A DNA stretch of 64,000 nucleotides, from positions 1-64,000 of the forward strand of contig CAMVTO010000002.1 of NCBI GenBank assembly GCA_947170435.1, read 5' to 3'. A program made the position numbers and the translations under genes. The notes beneath the pieces were generated by a model. It searched no databases. It was not told where the DNA came from and saw only the letters and a program-made list of their open reading frames with translations. Below, piece after piece: positions 5,307 through 52,707 of the stretch. Every line of letters starts with the position of its first letter. Positions within the stretch are counted from its first letter, which is position 1. This DNA comes from an uncultured Clostridia bacterium (lineage in GTDB: Bacteria > Bacillota > Clostridia > Oscillospirales > Oscillospiraceae).

Positions 5307-8300
5307 ATGAAAGAGAAGAATCATCCCATAAAAGGTGGGAATACCCTCCTTTTCGCTGCGATTGGTGGAGTGCTCATCGCGCTTGTCCTCATTTTCGGAA
5401 CGATTTGGATGGGACACAGCGCCCGCCTGAGCACTGAGGCGGCGGTGCACTCCGTCAGCGATTTCTATCTTCAGGAACTGGCGGGGCGCAGAGAGCAGGT
5501 CGTTGCCACCAATTTGAGCACGAATATTAAGAATATGTATGTTGCGCTGGAGCTGATGGATGAGACGGACCTGTCCGACGTGGCGCACCTTCAAGCCTGG
5601 CAGGCCAGAATGAAGCGGCTCTATGAGTTGGAAAAATTCGCGTTTGTGGACTCGTCCGGCCTGATCTATACCTCGCTGGGAACGCAGGACAACATCGGAG
5701 AATACCGCTTTGATTACAAAACCATCAGCGGACCTGAAATCTCCATTAAGGATCTGGAGAGCGAAGATAAGAAGGTCGTGATCGCAATCCCGGTGGACGG
5801 TCTGGCGTTCAACGGCCGGACCCTTGTTGCCTGCTTTATGGAGATCGACATGGACGTGCTCCTGGAGGGACTGTCAATCCAGGCCGACGCGAACGCGACG
5901 ACCTTCTGCAATCTCTATTATGAGGACGGCACCTCTCTGACTGGCGTGGTCCTCGGCGGTCTGTCCCCTGACCGGGGGCTGATGGACGCGCTGGCGCAGG
6001 CGGAGTTTACCGATAACCGTTCGATGGAGCAGATTCGGAAGGATTTCCGCGAAAGCCGCGAGGGCAAGATCTCCTTTGCCTATAACGGCACTTCTGAGAA
6101 TATGTACTATGTGCCCGTCAGCGGCACGAACTGGATGCTCACCTATCTGATCCGCGACAGCATCATCGGGGATCAGATCAACACAATTTCTCAGGGCATC
6201 ATCACCCGCAGCCTGATCCAAACGCTCATTACCGCCGCCGTTTTGGCCGCTGTCTTTGCGATTATCATTTCCCAGAACCGCAGGGCCGGACGTCTGAGGC
6301 TGGAGATGGAGACCGCGGATGCGGAAAACCGCGTAAAAGAGGAGGAGATGCAGGAGCGTTTGATGCTTCAGGAGCAGCTGTTGGAGCAGGAACGGCAGAA
6401 CGAAACCATGCGGACCCTTCACGATATGCTGAAATCCGGCCCCTGGTTCATGGATTTTGACGAGCAGGGACGCATGGTCAGCGTGACCTGGACAGATACC
6501 TTTCGGAAAATGGTCGGCTATGACAGCGCGGAGGACTTCCCAGACCGGCTGGAGTCCTGGTCCGATCTGCTGCACCCGGACGACAAAGAGCGTGTTTTGA
6601 ACGAATTCAATGAGACGATACAGGATTACTCCGGAAAGAAGGTCTACGACGTCACCTACCGGCTCAGGACAAAGGATCGCGGCTGGCGCTGGTTCCATTC
6701 GGTGGGCCAGCCGACCCGGCGGACGGACGGAACGCCGATCACCTATATCGGCATCTTTATGGACGTCAACGGCCAAAAGGAAATGGAGCAGACCCTGGCG
6801 GAGCAGCAGGAGTCCCTTCGGGAAGCGCTGACCGCGGCGGAACAGGCCAACGCCGCGAAGACCTCCTTCCTTTCCAGCATGAGCCATGAGATCCGCACTC
6901 CCATGAACGCCATCATCGGCCTGGACAGCATCGCCCTGAAGGACCCCGATCTGCCGGAACGTACCAGAGAGCATTTGCAGAAGATCGGCGGCAGCGCGAA
7001 GCATCTGCTATCTCTGATCAATGACATTCTGGATATGAGCCGTATCGAGAGCGGGCGCCTGACACTGAAGAACGAGGAGTTTTCGTTCCGCGAGATGCTG
7101 GAGCAGATCAACACGATGATCAACGGTCAGTGCCAGGACAAGGGCCTGACCTATGAGTGCCACATCAACGGGAAGGTCAACGATTACTATATCGGCGACA
7201 GCACGAAGCTCAAGCAGGTCATCATCAACATTCTCGGAAACTCCGTGAAGTTTACGCCCGCCCCCGGAACGGTGTCGTTTGTTGTGGAGCCGGTGTCGCA
7301 GTTTGAGGGACAGGCAACGATGCGCTTCATCATGCAGGACACAGGCATCGGAATGGACAAGGAGTACCTTCCCAAGATTTTCGACGCATTCTCTCAGGAG
7401 GACCCGAACAAGGCGAATAAGTACGGCAGCACCGGCCTGGGCATGGCGATTACGAAAAATATCGTGGACATGATGAACGGCCAGATCAGCGTTGAGAGCG
7501 AAAAGGGCGTCGGAACGACCTTCACAGTCACTGTCACGCTGAAGACGACGGATCGAAAAGGTTCAGCCTCCATTGAAGTGCGCCCTCAGGATATGCGCGT
7601 TCTGGTTATTGACGACGATCCTGTGGCCTGCGAACATGCCAAGCTGGTGCTGGAGGAGGTCGGGATCGCGTCTGATTCCTGCTTCAGTGGAAAAGAGGCC
7701 CTGGAAATGCTGGAGCTTGCCCACGCCCGCAGGCATGACTATAACCTTATCCTTGTCGATCTCAGAATGCCGGAGCAGGACGGTGTGGAGGTTACACGGC
7801 AGATCCGCAAGCTCTATAACGGAGAATCCACGATCATCATCCTGACTGCGTATAGCTGGGACGATATTATGGAGGAAGCCCTTGACGCCGGCGTGGACAG
7901 CTTCATGGCGAAGCCGCTGTTCGCCTCCGGGGTGCTTCAGGAATTCAGGCAGGTTATCCAGAGAAAGCACCTTGATACCGAGGAAGCACATAAGGCGGAC
8001 CTGACCGGGAAGCGCATTCTTCTGGCGGAGGACATGCCCATTAACGCCGAGATCATGATGGAGCTGCTGGGTATGCGGGACATGCTCGTGGATCACGCGG
8101 AAAACGGTCAGATCGTTGTGGATATGTTCTCCAGGAGTGCAGAGTATTATTACGACGCCATCCTGATGGATGTGCGGATGCCGGTAATGACAGGACTGGA
8201 AGCGACCGTTGCCATTCGCGCCTTAGATCGTCCCGACGCAAAAACGATCCCGATTATCGCCATGACCGCCAATGCGTTTGACGAGGACGTGCAGCGGTCG

Positions 8301-27592: not shown

Positions 27593-27597
27593 GAACG

Positions 27598-27853
27598 GAA
27601 TTCGTATTCCGATGATTGTTTCAGATGGTCACATAGAGACAATACTACCGATACATACTTTCTTATACCATATAATCCCGGTTGATGCAACATATTTTTT
27701 GAATTTGAGTACAAAAAACTGAGCCTCGCAGTTGGAATGCTGCTAAGGCTTGACTGAACACACCCTTTTGTTCCTGTCTCAGGAGCAAGAGGGCGCTTTT
27801 TTATGTTTTAAGGGGCTCCTCGGTGACCTGCGCTGTAATCGGAATACGAATTC
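27598..27853. promoter_or_regulatory. Candidate invertible promoter segment, cassette 1 (apparently OFF)
   Basis: gaattcgtattccgat 27598-27613 / atcggaatacgaattc 27838-27853 (16-bp IR); minus-strand promoter TTGCAT-17-TATAAG (27690-27662); plus-strand terminator ~27760-27806. Confidence 0.8.
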
Positions 27854-27875
27854 TGATTACAAGGGAGGCATGGCG

Positions 27876-45777: not shown

Positions 45778-45853
45778 GCTGGTATAGCTCAGTTGGTAGA
45801 GCAGCTGATTTGTAATCAGCAGGTCGGGGGTTCGAGTCCGTCTACCAGCTCCA
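45778..45853 (+). tRNA. tRNA-Thr (anticodon TGT)
   Basis: GCTGGTATAGCTCAGTTGGTAGAGCAGCTGATTTGTAATCAGCAGGTCGGGGGTTCGAGTCCGTCTACCAGCTCCA. Confidence 0.97.
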
Positions 45854-45882
45854 TAAACCTCTCAAAGCAGCGAATTGAATAT

Positions 45883-45967
45883 GGGGGAATTCCCGAGTGG
45901 CCAAAGGGGGCAGACTGTAAATCTGTTGTCAGTGACTTCGGTGGTTCGAATCCACCTTCCCCCACCA
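45883..45967 (+). tRNA. tRNA-Tyr (anticodon GTA)
   Basis: GGGGGAATTCCCGAGTGGCC...CAGACTGTAAATCTG...GGTTCGAATCCACCTTCCCCCACCA. Confidence 0.97.
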
Positions 45968-46080: not shown

Positions 46081-46582
46081 TTTTTGCGTTTAAGCCTTGG
46101 ACTGCTGAGCCTTCCAAGACGCAAACTCCGTGCGCCGTGTGGTGGTTGGAGGGACAGGAGGAAGCTAAGTTGTTTTATGGCGCGCTTGCGGGCGGCAAAA
46201 AAGCAGACGCCGAAGATTCTTCAGCGTCTGCTTTTTATAGAGCAGTAATATAGAAAACAATCAAAACACGGACACACGGCCTAACTCGCATTAGGATGAC
46301 AACGAGAAAACACGACATATAGAGGCGCGTAACAGACCCCTATGCGATAAAAGTTGACGACAGTATTATCCAAAATACTGAAATAAGTTAACGATTGCAG
46401 TTCTTATTGTATGGGGATTAGGACACACCTAATCCCGTGCTTTTCACCGTCGGCAATATAATCGTTGCTCGTAGCTTATGGTTTCTCTACACCTACCATG
46501 CTACGCTAATTCCGGGCAACATTGGATAACCCCTTGACAATCCGCGTACAATAACGCCATTCTCAACCAAGGGAGGTATGGC

Positions 46583-47419
46583 ATGACGATAACAAAAGAA
46601 GACCTGACCGCGTATCGCGCCCACTTGCGGTCCGAAGAACGCAGCGCCGCGACCGTCGCGAAGTACCTGCACGATGTAGCCGCATTTGCGCTATGGCTGA
46701 ACGATACGCCGCTGACCAAGGAAGCTGCCGCGGACTGGAAGCAAGAGCTATTGCGCCGCGGACAAGCTCCTGCGACTGTCAACGCCGCTTTGGCGGCGCT
46801 CAACGGGCTGTTCCGGTTTCTCGGACGCGATGACTGTCGCGTGCGGTTCCTCAAGGTCCAGAGGCGCGCATTCCGGGACGAATCCAAAGAGCTGTCACAG
46901 GGCGAATACACCGCGCTCGTCAATACCGCAAGGGCGCAAGGCAAAGCACGCCTCGCGCTGCTCATCGAGACCATCGGCGGCACGGGCATCCGCGTCAGCG
47001 AGGTCGCGTATATCACGGTCGAGGCGGCACAGAGAGGGCGCGCGGAAATCGCACTCAAGGGCAAAATCCGCACGATTCTCCTGCCCGCGAAGCTCTGCCG
47101 AAAGCTGCTCAAGTACGCCAAGACGCAGGGTATCACAAGCGGCGCCATCTTCCGCACCGCAACCGGCAAGCCGCTCTCGCGGCGCCAGATTTGGGGCGAG
47201 ATGAAGGCCATCTGCAAGGCGGCGGGTGTGGAACCGAGCAAGGTATTCCCGCACAACCTGCGACACCTGTTCGCGGTGGCGTTTTATCGCGTGAGCCGTG
47301 ACATTGTGAAGCTCGCGGACGTACTGGGGCACAGCTCCATTGAAACGACGCGCATCTACCTCATGACGACAGAAAAAGAACACCAACGGCAGCTTGACCG
47401 GCTGCGATTGGTGTCGTAG
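46583..47419 (+). CDS. Tyrosine recombinase (candidate promoter invertase, cassette 2; ~90% identical by eye to 26756-27592)
   Basis: Gap-free 278-aa match to cassette 1 recombinase; HNLRHLFA, LGHSSIETTRIY. Confidence 0.93.
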   Translation: MTITKEDLTAYRAHLRSEERSAATVAKYLHDVAAFALWLNDTPLTKEAAADWKQELLRRGQAPATVNAALAALNGLFRFLGRDDCRVRFLKVQRRAFRDESKELSQGEYTALVNTARAQGKARLALLIETIGGTGIRVSEVAYITVEAAQRGRAEIALKGKIRTILLPAKLCRKLLKYAKTQGITSGAIFRTATGKPLSRRQIWGEMKAICKAAGVEPSKVFPHNLRHLFAVAFYRVSRDIVKLADVLGHSSIETTRIYLMTTEKEHQRQLDRLRLVS

Positions 47420-47420
47420 G

Positions 47421-47682
47421 ACGGAATACACATTCCGTTATATGCTCCAAGCGGAAAAATAGTGACATAGACACTATTACATAATCTTTATACCACATAA
47501 TCCCCAGCTATGCAATACTTTTTTATCAATATGAGCGCAAAAATCTAAGCCCCGCGGCTTAAAAAACCGCCAGGCTTACTTCAGTGCACCCTTTTGTTCC
47601 CATTCGCGGAACAAGAGGGTGCTTTTTTGTGTTTTGAGGGGGCTTTGGGTGCTTCGCCCTGTCAACGGAATGTGTATTCCGT
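47421..47682. promoter_or_regulatory. Candidate invertible promoter segment, cassette 2 (apparently OFF)
   Basis: Perfect 18-bp IR acggaatacacattccgt 47421-47438 / acggaatgtgtattccgt 47665-47682; minus-strand promoter TTGCAT-17-TATAAA (47515-47487); plus-strand terminator gcacccttttgttcc...ggaacaagagggtgctttttt 47586-47628. Confidence 0.85.
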
Positions 47683-47701
47683 GACAAGGAGATGCTGACC
47701 C

Positions 47702-48193
47702 ATGGCTCACACCACCGCCCGCCTTGACCTGACCGGACAGCGCTTCGGAAAGCTCACCGTCGTCGCGCCCGCCGAGAATATCGGACGGCGCACCGCTTGG
47801 CTGTGCCGGTGCGACTGCGGCGGCGAGCGCATCGTCAAGACCGTACACCTCCGCGAGGGCAAGGTCACGAGCTGCGGCTGTGCCAAAGAAAAGCACAGCG
47901 CAAGCGCACTGGGCCTGCACTATGTCGACGGCACCTGCGTCGAGATGCTGCGCGCGAACACCAAGCGCCGCAATAACAAGAGCGGCGTGGTCGGCGTGGT
48001 GTGGAGACCGGCGCGCCGCAGATGGCAGGCGAGCATCATGTTCAAGGGCACGCGCCACAACCTCGGCATGTACGCCCAATTCGACGACGCGGCAAAGGCG
48101 CGGCGGGAGGCCGAAGCGCTGTACTACGGCTCGTTTCTCGCGGACTTCGACGCGAAGCGGGCTATGACCGAACCGGCGGGAGCCGGGTCGTAA
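47702..48193 (+). CDS. AP2-domain-type zinc-ribbon protein (cassette 2)
   Basis: LDLTGQRFGKLTV...CRCDCGGE...SCGC; NNKSGVVGVVWRPARRRWQASIMFKGTRHNLGMY; tail MTEPAGAGS as in cassette 1 copy 2. Confidence 0.82.
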   Translation: MAHTTARLDLTGQRFGKLTVVAPAENIGRRTAWLCRCDCGGERIVKTVHLREGKVTSCGCAKEKHSASALGLHYVDGTCVEMLRANTKRRNNKSGVVGVVWRPARRRWQASIMFKGTRHNLGMYAQFDDAAKARREAEALYYGSFLADFDAKRAMTEPAGAGS

Positions 48194-48212: not shown

Positions 48213-48380
48213 AGGATGTGATACTCAGGCAAAAGCGTGGCAGTTCAGCGGGGCGCACCCGCTTGTCGTCGGGTTTGGTTGCGCAGACCGACGACGGCGG
48301 GAGAATGTGCCGGAGCTTCATCGGGGGGACTACGTAGACCGATAAGGTACGCCGTTCGCGCGCGAGACAACAAAATGTAC
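48213..48380 (+). ncRNA. Conserved structured leader element of unknown class (cassette 2)
   Basis: Homologous to 29275-29440; hairpin gtcgtcgg-gtttggttgcgcaga-ccgacgac 48265-48295. Confidence 0.55.
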
Positions 48381-48458
48381 ACCGCAAAACCGGGGAAATC
48401 CGGCGACGCAAAGGCAGGAGGCTAAGGGGCGCAAGCTCTATGCTCGTCCGCCCGCCAG
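48381..48458 (+). promoter_or_regulatory. c-di-GMP-I (GEMM)-like aptamer 1 of 3, cassette 2
   Basis: gcaaaaccggGGAAAtccggcgACGCAAAGgcaggaggCTAAGgggcgcaagctcTATGctcgtccgcccgcc. Confidence 0.65.
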
Positions 48459-48474
48459 ATATGGCGTCTTCACT

Positions 48475-48600
48475 CAGCAAAGCCGTCGAAAGGCGGCGAC
48501 GCAAAGCCGCGTGTTGGGAAACCGCACGCTTAGGAGGCTAAGACCTTATGCCTATTACTGTGCAAGGGAGGCAAAGGTTATGCTCGTCCGGCTGCCGAAG
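48475..48600 (+). promoter_or_regulatory. c-di-GMP-I (GEMM)-like aptamer 2 of 3, cassette 2
   Basis: agcaaagccgtcGAAAggcggcgACGCAAAGCC...CTAAG...TATGctcgtccggctgccgaag. Confidence 0.7.
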
Positions 48601-48615
48601 ATATGATATCTTCTT

Positions 48616-48815
48616 TAGCAAACCCGCTGAAAAGCGGCGACGCAAAGCCAGAGCCCCTGTCGGAACAAACCGTATCCCCGTCTTTATCCGAGCAGAACCC
48701 AACGAAGTGGTTCTGCGAGGAAGAGGAGGGGCAACGAAGCGATACGCAGTTTTCGCCGCAAGGCGGAAACGGAGCGAGCGCAGTTTGACCCGACGAGGCC
48801 GTTCGGCCGCCGGGG
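48616..48815 (+). promoter_or_regulatory. c-di-GMP-I (GEMM)-like aptamer 3 of 3, cassette 2, interrupted by a repeat insertion
   Basis: agcaaacccgctGAAAagcggcgACGCAAAGCCagagcccctgtcgg ... cgacgaggccgttcggccgccgggg. Confidence 0.5.
48738..48786 (+). repeat. Interspersed repeat, copy inside third aptamer of cassette 2
   Basis: 46/49 identical to reverse complement of 37619-37667. Confidence 0.75.
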
Positions 48816-48961: not shown

Positions 48962-51697
48962 ATGAAGAAACTGAAAAAATCATTATCTCTCCTCTTAGCG
49001 CTCGTCATGGTACTCAGCTGCATGAGCGTCGGCGTGTTCGCGGACGGCTCTTCTGTCACTTTCAACAATGTGGTCTATGATTCGCTGGAAGCAGCAGTAA
49101 ATGTTGCAAACGGTGAACAGATTACTTTGGGTGAAGGAACATACACGCTTAATATTGCACATAATAACCAAATTACAAAGACAATCAATATTAAGGGTGC
49201 CGGCAAAGACAAAACAGTTATCAATGCACCCACTGCAGAAAACTGTTATGGCGGATTTACAAATATCGTGCTTGAGGACTTAACCATCGCATGTGATAAC
49301 TATAATTATCACAACTGGGCATATGTTGCTAACGCGACGTATAAAAACTGCAAGATTACCGGCCTCTTTACCAACTATGCTCCCACGGTAAAGTTTGAAA
49401 TGTGCGAGTTTGTACAGACGACAGACGATCAGTATAGCATCTGGACATATGCAGGTACGAATGTGACCTTCGATACCTGCACTTTTACGGCAAGCAAGAA
49501 CAGCAAAAGTGTCCTCTGCTATACTGAACAGGATCTTGGCAGTGTTGCAAAGATACAGTTTACGAACTGCTCGTTTTCCTGTAACAAGGAAGTGGAGAAG
49601 TCCGCTGTGATGATCAACCCGACTGCGTATGATAATGTGAACACCTATGTGGTTTCCTTCACAAACTGCAACGCTACGGGCTATGGCACGAACCAGATTG
49701 AGGATGTTGACGGTCTTGTCGGATTGAAGAAAACAGTCAAGGACAACATCACCATCACCATTGACGACACACAGGTCTATCCCGAGGTTGCCGCTCCCGC
49801 GGTTGCCACGATCGGCACCACCGAGTACCCGACGCTGGCTGCGGCTGTCGCGGCTGTCAATGCTGGCGAGACAAAAACCATCAAACTGCTGTCTGATGCT
49901 TCGGGTGCTGGTATTTTTGTCGAGGCTAACGGCAACAGAAACATTACCGTTGATTTCAATGGATACACCTACACCTGCACTGGCCCGGCTGTTGGTTCTA
50001 CTGGTACGGAGTCCCAAGCGTGGCATCTTGAAGAGGGTAACACCATTACCTTGAAAAACGGTACTGTAACAACCAGCACTCTTGAAGACTATTATACGAG
50101 TGGAAACGTGCATGGTGTTTTGATGATTATCCAGAACTACTGTGACCTTACTCTGGACCATATGACGGTTGACGGACAGCACATGTATTATAATGGCACA
50201 TATGCTTTGTCCAACAACAACGGGACAGTAAAGATCAAGGACACAACCATTACTCGCAGCAGGTACGGTAATGGTCCAATCGCTTTTGACGTCTGCCGTT
50301 ACAGCAGCTATCCCTCCGTCAATGTTACAGTTGAAGGCAACAGCGTGATCAATGGTAATATCGAATTTGACGTGGGTTCAGCTAATCCGAAAGATGGTGC
50401 GCATCTGTTCATTACCAGCGGTACGATCAATGGCCAGATTAAGCCGACCGAAAAGGGTGCAACGGCGTTGGCGGCTGACAATAGTAAAGCCTCCATCTCC
50501 ATCACCGGCGGCACGTTCAGCAGCGATCCCAGCGCGTATGTCGCCGCAGGCTACCTTGCCGTTGAGACGGTGCCGAACACCACTTGGGTCGTAAAGCATG
50601 CCACAACGACGTCCAGCACACCGGAGTCAACGGATAAGGGCAGCAGTGTTGTGGTCAATACCGCCACCGCAACCGAAGCAGCGGCTACTGCAACAGAGTA
50701 TTCCGTCACGGTTACGGCTAACCAGCAGGACCCCACCACCATCAGTCTGATTGACTCTGCTGAGGCCAGCGTGAGCAATATTGCCACAAGCTCCCTTGCG
50801 AGCGTTGTCAAGTCTCTGGTTGAACAGGTTGAGAGTCAGAATACGACGCTTTCAAATGATGGCTACTTCCAGATTGAGCTGAAGAAGAACGACAATGCTG
50901 ACATTGCTAGTGATAGCACGGCGACTGATGAAGTAATAACAGCCATTGGCGCCGCCGACGTTGTGTTTGACGTCTATCCTGAACTGGTTGCCTACGATGC
51001 CGATGACAACGTTGTCGCTTCCGCGAAGGTTAACAATGACCAGCTTGCGAGTGGCGCGTCATTTACGTTCTCGCTTGATCTCGGCGTCGAGTACGCCAGC
51101 AAAATCGTCACGCTGACGCACTATCACTATGACGAGACGTCTGGGACGTGGACGACGACCGTTCTCGGCGACTTCGCGACGGACAGTACCGGCAAGGTTT
51201 CCGGCATCACAATGAGCGAGTTCAGCTATATCGCGGCGAATGCCGGCGCATCGGTGGATTCTACCGAGTATGGCTATATTGATGAAGCGCAGATGAACCT
51301 GTACTCCTATCTGGACTTCCATGTAAAAATCCAGCTGACCCAGGCGGGCGTTGCTGCGGTTGGTAATGGCCTCTTGCTCTCCGTGATTTATGACAGCGAC
51401 CCTGATCAGAACGAAACCTACACGCTGAGTGATCTGACCGGAACAGATGGATTGTATGATATCGCGGTTCAGGTTCGGCCGAGACATTTGTATAAGGATG
51501 TTGCGTTCCAACTCATGAGCGCGGATCGTAATACAGTGTATCAGATGTGGAGTCCTGAAAGCGGAGAGGGGACAACCGCCTCTATTTCCCCCGACTATTA
51601 TCTGGATACAGTCCAGGGGTACGATGCTGTCATTTCGGCCTTGCATAGTTATGCTGATGCGGCGATTGATGTGTGGGGAGATGGCGTAACATATTGA
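48962..51697 (+). CDS. Large secreted surface protein with beta-helix-like repeats (cassette 2 cargo)
   Basis: Signal peptide MKKLKKSLSLLLALVMVLSCMSVGVFA, nearly the same as cassette 1 cargo; different mature region. Confidence 0.8.
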   Translation: MKKLKKSLSLLLALVMVLSCMSVGVFADGSSVTFNNVVYDSLEAAVNVANGEQITLGEGTYTLNIAHNNQITKTINIKGAGKDKTVINAPTAENCYGGFTNIVLEDLTIACDNYNYHNWAYVANATYKNCKITGLFTNYAPTVKFEMCEFVQTTDDQYSIWTYAGTNVTFDTCTFTASKNSKSVLCYTEQDLGSVAKIQFTNCSFSCNKEVEKSAVMINPTAYDNVNTYVVSFTNCNATGYGTNQIEDVDGLVGLKKTVKDNITITIDDTQVYPEVAAPAVATIGTTEYPTLAAAVAAVNAGETKTIKLLSDASGAGIFVEANGNRNITVDFNGYTYTCTGPAVGSTGTESQAWHLEEGNTITLKNGTVTTSTLEDYYTSGNVHGVLMIIQNYCDLTLDHMTVDGQHMYYNGTYALSNNNGTVKIKDTTITRSRYGNGPIAFDVCRYSSYPSVNVTVEGNSVINGNIEFDVGSANPKDGAHLFITSGTINGQIKPTEKGATALAADNSKASISITGGTFSSDPSAYVAAGYLAVETVPNTTWVVKHATTTSSTPESTDKGSSVVVNTATATEAAATATEYSVTVTANQQDPTTISLIDSAEASVSNIATSSLASVVKSLVEQVESQNTTLSNDGYFQIELKKNDNADIASDSTATDEVITAIGAADVVFDVYPELVAYDADDNVVASAKVNNDQLASGASFTFSLDLGVEYASKIVTLTHYHYDETSGTWTTTVLGDFATDSTGKVSGITMSEFSYIAANAGASVDSTEYGYIDEAQMNLYSYLDFHVKIQLTQAGVAAVGNGLLLSVIYDSDPDQNETYTLSDLTGTDGLYDIAVQVRPRHLYKDVAFQLMSADRNTVYQMWSPESGEGTTASISPDYYLDTVQGYDAVISALHSYADAAIDVWGDGVTY

Positions 51698-51732: not shown

Positions 51733-51858
51733 ATGAAAAAAAACTATGAAGATCCTAAGTTGGCAGTGGTGCAGTTTTCTGACGTGATTGTTACAAGCGA
51801 TTTGGACATCCAGCCGGAAGGTGACAGCCAACTTCCCTCTACTAAGTTTACACGCTGA
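51733..51858 (+). CDS. 41-aa peptide of unknown function
   Basis: RBS ggaggagata then MKKNYEDPKLAVVQFSDVIVTSDLDIQPEGDSQLPSTKFTR. Confidence 0.65.
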   Translation: MKKNYEDPKLAVVQFSDVIVTSDLDIQPEGDSQLPSTKFTR

Positions 51859-51891: not shown

Positions 51892-52707
51892 GTGTCCGCT
51901 CCTCAATTTATGAGGATGATAAACAATATGCGGAATGTTTTTCGATGCTGTCTTATGTTGATGGCATGCTTTGCGTTATTATTACCTGTTCGGGCAGATG
52001 ACAGTTCACTACCAACTGTGAGTTTTAAGCGGGAGGAATCGACAAGTCAGGAACAGTCTTTGCCTGTAGAAGTTCCCTCCCCTATCCCCGCGCCCTCTGG
52101 CGGCTCCGGCTTCGCGTCCCCCATCGTGAACAGCAAGGCCATCGAGATCCTGCTGGCCGACGGCACGTCCATCGTCCTGCCGTTCCTCGACGTGCCGCAG
52201 GACGCCTATTACACTGCGGCTGTCGCGTGGGCGTACAGCCATGACCCGCAGATCACCGGCGGCGTCAGCGCCGAGCGCTTTGACCCGCTGGGGACCTGCA
52301 CCCGCGGTCAGATGGTGACCTTCCTCTGGCGCGCGGCGGGCTGCCCCGAGCCGACCGGAACGGCGTCCGCGTTCTCTGACGTAGCGGCGGGGAGCTGGTA
52401 CGAAAAGGCGGTCGCGTGGGCGGTTGCGAACGGCATCACCGACGGCGTAGGCGGAGGCAGATTCGACCCGAACGGCATTGTGAACCGCGCGCAGGCGGTC
52501 ACGTTCCTGTACCGCGCCAAGGGCAAGCCCGCGGCAACGGCTGCGGAGAGCTTCACCGACGTTGGAAGCGGCGCGTACTACGCCGACGCGGTGGCGTGGG
52601 CGGTTGCGAACGGCGTCACGGACGGCGTGGGCAACAACAGCTTCGCGCCGAACGCGAACTGCGTCCGCGGCCAGACGGTCACGTTCCTGTACCGCGCGTA
52701 CAAGTAA
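51892..52707 (+). CDS. Secreted protein with three SLH domains
   Basis: Signal peptide and three SLH repeats (e.g. FSDVAAGSWYEKAVAWAVANGITDGVGGGRFDPNGIVNRAQAVTFLYR). Confidence 0.9.
   Translation: MSAPQFMRMINNMRNVFRCCLMLMACFALLLPVRADDSSLPTVSFKREESTSQEQSLPVEVPSPIPAPSGGSGFASPIVNSKAIEILLADGTSIVLPFLDVPQDAYYTAAVAWAYSHDPQITGGVSAERFDPLGTCTRGQMVTFLWRAAGCPEPTGTASAFSDVAAGSWYEKAVAWAVANGITDGVGGGRFDPNGIVNRAQAVTFLYRAKGKPAATAAESFTDVGSGAYYADAVAWAVANGVTDGVGNNSFAPNANCVRGQTVTFLYRAYK

Follow-up and report, generated by a model that had tools for sequence, protein, structure and literature searches.

Positions 47421-47682 of the window (the whole 64,000-nucleotide stretch of DNA from an uncultured Oscillospiraceae bacterium analyzed here) very probably form, together with the neighboring recombinase, an invertible-promoter (inverton) phase switch, judging from the sequence. 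The features by which an inverton is recognized are found together: perfect 19-bp inverted repeats around a short segment of 262 bp, an intact site-specific recombinase, a predicted promoter that would face the target in just one of the two orientations and, in relatives (L034; L085/L086), both orientations of the segment. The upstream tyrosine recombinase would act on two sites of 18 bp. Their asymmetric 4-bp spacers run in opposite directions, and recombination would therefore invert the DNA between them (262 bp including the sites). In the OFF state the promoter would fire toward the recombinase and a terminator would keep read-through out of the operon; once inverted, the promoter would point at the operon, which would no longer be shielded by the strong plus-strand terminator. 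The ON transcript would cover an AP2-like gene, tandem c-di-GMP-I aptamers and then the gene for a secreted surface protein, and this protein would need both the ON orientation and a permissive c-di-GMP level. We infer that this recombinase recognizes the two sites, that the segment inverts at this locus and that its orientation governs transcription, as well as the direction in which c-di-GMP acts and the part played by the AP2-like protein.

Recombinase and Recombination Sites

The recombinase gene (46583..47419, plus strand) encodes a 278-aa tyrosine recombinase, the presumed cognate invertase, with Pfam matches to Phage_integrase (2.7e-24) and a SAM-like N-terminal domain (2.2e-8). Alignment with homologs reveals conservation of the R / HxxR / H / Y catalytic motifs. 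The upstream region (46496..46582, plus strand) contains a promoter-like site, TGGATA-18-TACAAT (46523-46552, plus strand), and a ribosome-binding site. No relatives of the recombinase were found in a search of viral contigs.

The repeats begin 1 bp past the recombinase stop codon (TAG, 47417-47419), exactly where the sequence-only reading had placed them. The same reading described perfect 18-bp inverted repeats; they are indeed perfect, but 19 bp long. The arms (47421-47439 and 47664-47682) are 100% complementary with 224 nt between them, and each is itself a dyad of the form ACGGAAT-N4-ATTCCGT. The left site (47421..47439, plus strand) reads ACGGAAT-ACAC-ATTCCGT plus T, and the right site (47664..47682, minus strand) is its reverse complement, with GTGT as the plus-strand spacer. 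In this the two arms resemble a pair of tyrosine-recombinase sites with asymmetric spacers pointing toward each other. Together they bound the invertible segment (47421..47682, assigned no strand; 262 bp, assembled OFF), which was delimited from the repeats, the layout and comparison with relatives. When up to three mismatches are allowed, the 18-bp site pattern matches three times in the 64-kb window against 0.12 matches expected, and these are both arms here and one arm of cassette 1, described below. Adjacency, and a site sequence that shifts with recombinase clade, suggest that the adjacent recombinase acts on these two sites.

Sister Cassettes in the Same Genome

Three close recombinase copies are present in the assembly, at C2:26756 (cassette 1), C2:46583 (the studied locus) and C44:1463. 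They share 90-92% protein identity, and a 262-bp segment follows each. Cassette 1 (27595-27856) repeats the layout of the studied segment, as had been claimed for it, with equal length and 67% internal identity. All three cassettes are assembled OFF. The segment on contig C44 (L025) is identical to the studied one and lies in a 741-bp identical tract (window 47360-48100, C44 2240-2980), while the rest of the recombinase genes and flanks differ; the tract may stem from a recent gene conversion or from an error in the draft assembly.

Three further recombinases in the genome are more distant (46-47%), and two of these have repeats that differ in sequence. Loci L027, L028, and L030 (contigs C13, C48, and C18) make up a second switch-like set of 250-270 bp with other repeats, e.g., TACAACAGACTGTGCA, and adjoin the 46-47% recombinases or a fragment. 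At L026 (contig C49, ~1300-2170) the same leader family and c-di-GMP-I aptamers precede another secreted protein, and a fixed promoter-like sequence, read by eye, replaces the invertible segment.

Promoter and Terminators within the Segment

The minus-strand promoter TTGCAT-17-TATAAA that the sequence-only reading had proposed at 47515-47487 is present, and carries an extended -10 TG in addition; as assembled, this promoter (47487..47515, minus strand) points away from the operon. Its -35 matches the consensus at 3 of 6 positions and a generic promoter scan did not report it; it is credited because it is conserved, not because of a consensus match. Among five distinct same-genus segments the -35 is invariant at 6/6 positions, the -10 at 5/6 and the three positions around the TG element at 3/3, giving 14/15 invariant promoter positions vs. 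73/169 in the remaining segment, and the hexamers are among the best-conserved parts of the segment. The comparison with relatives that had been proposed as a check was extended across Clostridia, where the position of the promoter is stereotyped: of 48 distinct segments, 45 have their best promoter at a distance of 70-110 bp from one end, in both orientations, compared with 18% in shuffles. Strong promoters among these 48 segments are ON in 14 cases and OFF in 20.

The plus-strand terminator was likewise confirmed (47586..47628), with a 15-pair stem at 47586-47622, a T-run and a folding energy of -25.5 kcal/mol. It faces the operon and, as assembled, should stop transcripts arriving from the recombinase gene. 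All OFF-oriented copies inspected in the genus have such a plus-strand terminator, although it is conserved more weakly than the promoter, with 20 of 43 columns invariant. The retention of promoter spacing and terminator had been taken as a sign of selection on the switch, a view that the promoter bears out and that the terminator alone supports more weakly. The assembled orientation had rightly been called OFF, with the promoter pointing back at the recombinase and the terminator facing the operon. A weaker terminator-like hairpin (47544..47563, minus strand) lies upstream of the minus-strand promoter, and where the ON transcript is predicted to begin there is another hairpin (AATAGTGTCTATGTCACTATT), which is poorly conserved among paralogs.

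Could the element instead be mainly a terminator switch, in which transcripts starting at the recombinase promoter run on into the operon and inversion puts a terminator in their way or takes it out? The C. difficile cwpV switch works in this way, via its terminator (PMC8844915). Here too a strong terminator faces the operon as assembled and is lost on inversion, and a promoter-like site precedes the recombinase gene. Such a mechanism is nevertheless unlikely given promoter hexamers that are so highly conserved and stereotyped in position, next to a terminator that is less conserved. Within an invertible-promoter switch, promoter and terminator may act together.

Opposite Orientation in Relatives

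By its own terms the sequence-only reading would fall if the inverted orientation were never observed and the promoter were not conserved in relatives. Neither holds: the promoter is conserved, and the opposite orientation was found in L034 and, independently, in L085 compared with L086. L034 belongs to a same-genus relative, the sheep-rumen MAG RGIG6629, and is a paralog or an ortholog in another species. In this comparison between species and paralogs, its segment shares 71-79% identity with the other complete same-genus copies when reversed, compared with 45% forward, and 67%, again reversed, with the recombinase-truncated copy L039. The L034 segment carries TTGCAT-17-TATAAA on the plus strand, facing its own operon. 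A second flipped pair, independent of this comparison, consists of L085 and L086 from other families (77% reversed vs. 49% forward). In L039 (~6000-6450) the segment is retained beside a recombinase of which just the C-terminal part is left; it could invert only if a recombinase were supplied in trans, and would otherwise be frozen.

At 60 loci, ends of the metagenome contig within 300 nt were counted on either side of the recombinase: 12 contigs stop after it and 3 before it (p = 0.025). This is as expected of populations of mixed orientation, although repeats can also break assemblies.

These observations bear on whether the recombinase and its sites could be remnants of a mobile integrase, flanking a segment that no longer inverts. 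All copies in the organism's own genome are OFF, L039 keeps its segment beside a truncated recombinase and some modules lie near tRNA genes, each of which would suit a frozen switch. However, the recombinase is intact with all its catalytic motifs, the repeats show no mismatch, relatives have the segment in either orientation and contigs tend to end at the switch, which makes loss of inversion quite improbable here.

Survey across Clostridia

Many homologs were found when 401 genomes of the family and 392 of the class were searched. The 59 loci that extend 350 bp or more past the recombinase were surveyed for repeat pairs (L036 and L063 being one locus). A pair was counted when it started -5 to +85 nt from the recombinase stop. 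By this measure, 52 of the 59 loci (51/58 without the duplicate) have one just past the stop, compared with one in the upstream control and none in shuffled sequence; no pair was found at the threshold used in the remaining 7/59. The segments span 249-325 bp in nearly all loci.

A set of 59 sites was selected for an AAT-N4-ATT core, so that conservation of AAT and ATT is by selection; the flanking C and the flanking G are each found in 58 of them. The 59 sites have 36 spacers, and none is self-complementary. The sequence of the repeat varies with recombinase clade, and the dyad with its central asymmetric spacer persists. That the repeats are a transcription-factor operator or a terminator pair with no relation to recombination can hardly be credited, for although each arm is a dyad, as many operators are, the repeat changes with recombinase clade while dyad and spacer stay, it adjoins a recombinase in 52/59 loci, and the reversed segments in relatives already speak against it.

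Active avoidance of shared spacers within a genome finds no support, with identical pairs making up 4/36 within genomes vs. 48/1675 between genomes. The identical within-genome pairs include cas2/C44 and other close paralogs.

Downstream Operon and c-di-GMP Aptamers

The sequence-only reading made no mention of a controlled target, which is predicted to be an operon with tandem c-di-GMP riboswitches. The first gene (47702..48193, plus strand) encodes a 163-aa protein with a cysteine-rich N-terminus (CRCDCG...CGC) and an AP2-like C-terminus. It scores 17.6 bits against AP2 family PF00847, where the cut-off is 33.3, and is hence called AP2-like only; the best matches in a fold search were AP2 domains, at a weak E of 0.1. 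Two c-di-GMP-I riboswitch aptamers on the plus strand, at 48373..48459 (62.3 bits) and 48466..48599 (36.9 bits), exceed the RF01051 gathering score of 35, and a third, c-di-GMP-I-like aptamer at 48607..48664 on the same strand falls below the Rfam threshold (29.0 bits, E 0.0015). No terminator-like expression platform was found in the leader, and RNA folding of the leader from the aptamers to the start codon was unremarkable (z -0.92). The presumed regulated product is a 911-aa secreted protein (48962..51697, plus strand) with a signal-peptide-like N-terminus and without a Pfam domain, and an S-layer homology (SLH) protein (51910..52707, plus strand; Pfam SLH 3.2e-29) is possibly co-expressed. 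Between the secreted and SLH genes lies a small ORF (window 51733-51858, ~41 aa, MKKNYEDPKLAVVQFSDVIVTS...), which might encode a short peptide precursor.

Promoter scans found no plus-strand promoter between the segment and the gene for the secreted protein, so inversion and c-di-GMP should act in series. GGDEF domain proteins are present in the genome. Aptamers for c-di-GMP are also found at cassette 1, C44, L034, and L039, and among the relatives' loci compared L035 is without them. In a different genus, L164 (the L061 locus) again combines recombinase, inverted repeats, c-di-GMP-I aptamer and secreted protein.

Other cargo is seen in Angelakisella, where an AP2-like gene and the gene for a bacterial sugar transferase lie behind the switch (L037, 1404-3727), which hints at exopolysaccharide cargo. 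Genes for tRNAs or a tRNA-like end lie just upstream of several surface modules (window 45778-45967; L061 1156-1361; L026 ~1200), and these sites are perhaps insertion hot spots.

Relation to Known Systems

In E. coli fimS and the invertible promoters of Bacteroides, a tyrosine recombinase inverts a promoter controlling surface structures; recombinases, sites and cargo all differ from those of the locus here. The relatives' sites, ACATAAT-N4-ATTATGT, resemble the dif core. The Xer system employs a XerC/XerD pair at one dif site with FtsK, unlike the single recombinase gene beside paired inverted sites described here, and the likeness is one of site sequence alone.

The use of an invertible promoter is shared with fimS of E. 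coli (PMC8844915). In the cmr and flagellar switches of C. difficile, DNA inversion and a c-di-GMP riboswitch converge on one operon (PMC8844915; PMC7446863), and for cmr the two inputs act independently (PMC8844915). The cmr element has a promoter in its ON orientation, as predicted here. The C. difficile riboswitches, however, lie upstream of the invertible element, whereas the aptamers here are downstream of the inverting promoter, in series with it, and RecV serves several switches where the recombinase here is adjacent (PMC8844915; PMC7446863).

Clostridial invertons linked to a tyrosine recombinase are already known. Group 139, linked to "invertase group 35", is described in the available part of its source with segments of 257 bp in Clostridium sp. 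D5 and 255 bp in Intestinimonas butyriciproducens, and with inversion measured by read mapping in human-gut strains (PMC11892184). The locus here shares with that group its occurrence in Clostridia, the nearby tyrosine recombinase and a length of ~255 bp, and is likely of the same kind, a likeness of class, recombinase and length as given in that part of the source. The same part of the source describes neither coupling to a c-di-GMP riboswitch nor an AP2-like gene, unlike the situation here (PMC11892184). Tandem c-di-GMP-I riboswitches have been catalogued as 347 doublets and 12 triplets, to be compared with two clear aptamers and one weak one in a row here; as far as the available portions of the catalogues go, they describe no invertible promoter (PMC4759541; PMC9481103). 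No report of series coupling of inversion and c-di-GMP in rumen Clostridia was found in the open-access literature searched. The new part therefore appears to be the placement of aptamers downstream of an inverting promoter with its own adjacent recombinase, in series.

Implications

A wider and doubtful proposal is that these are self-contained modules across Clostridia, each insulated from most copies in the same genome by its own asymmetric 4-bp spacer. Some lineages would place a strict series AND gate (inversion plus tandem c-di-GMP) on surface proteins, and the AP2-like gene would feed back on inversion or transcription.

The compact module recurs across many Clostridia, with secreted and SLH proteins as cargo and a sugar transferase in one relative. 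The catalogue now made of its sites, orientations and recombinase clades can be tested by read mapping. The arrangement suggests that surface proteins of a gut or rumen bacterium other than C. difficile are governed in series by DNA inversion, a heritable random switch, and by c-di-GMP, a graded signal.
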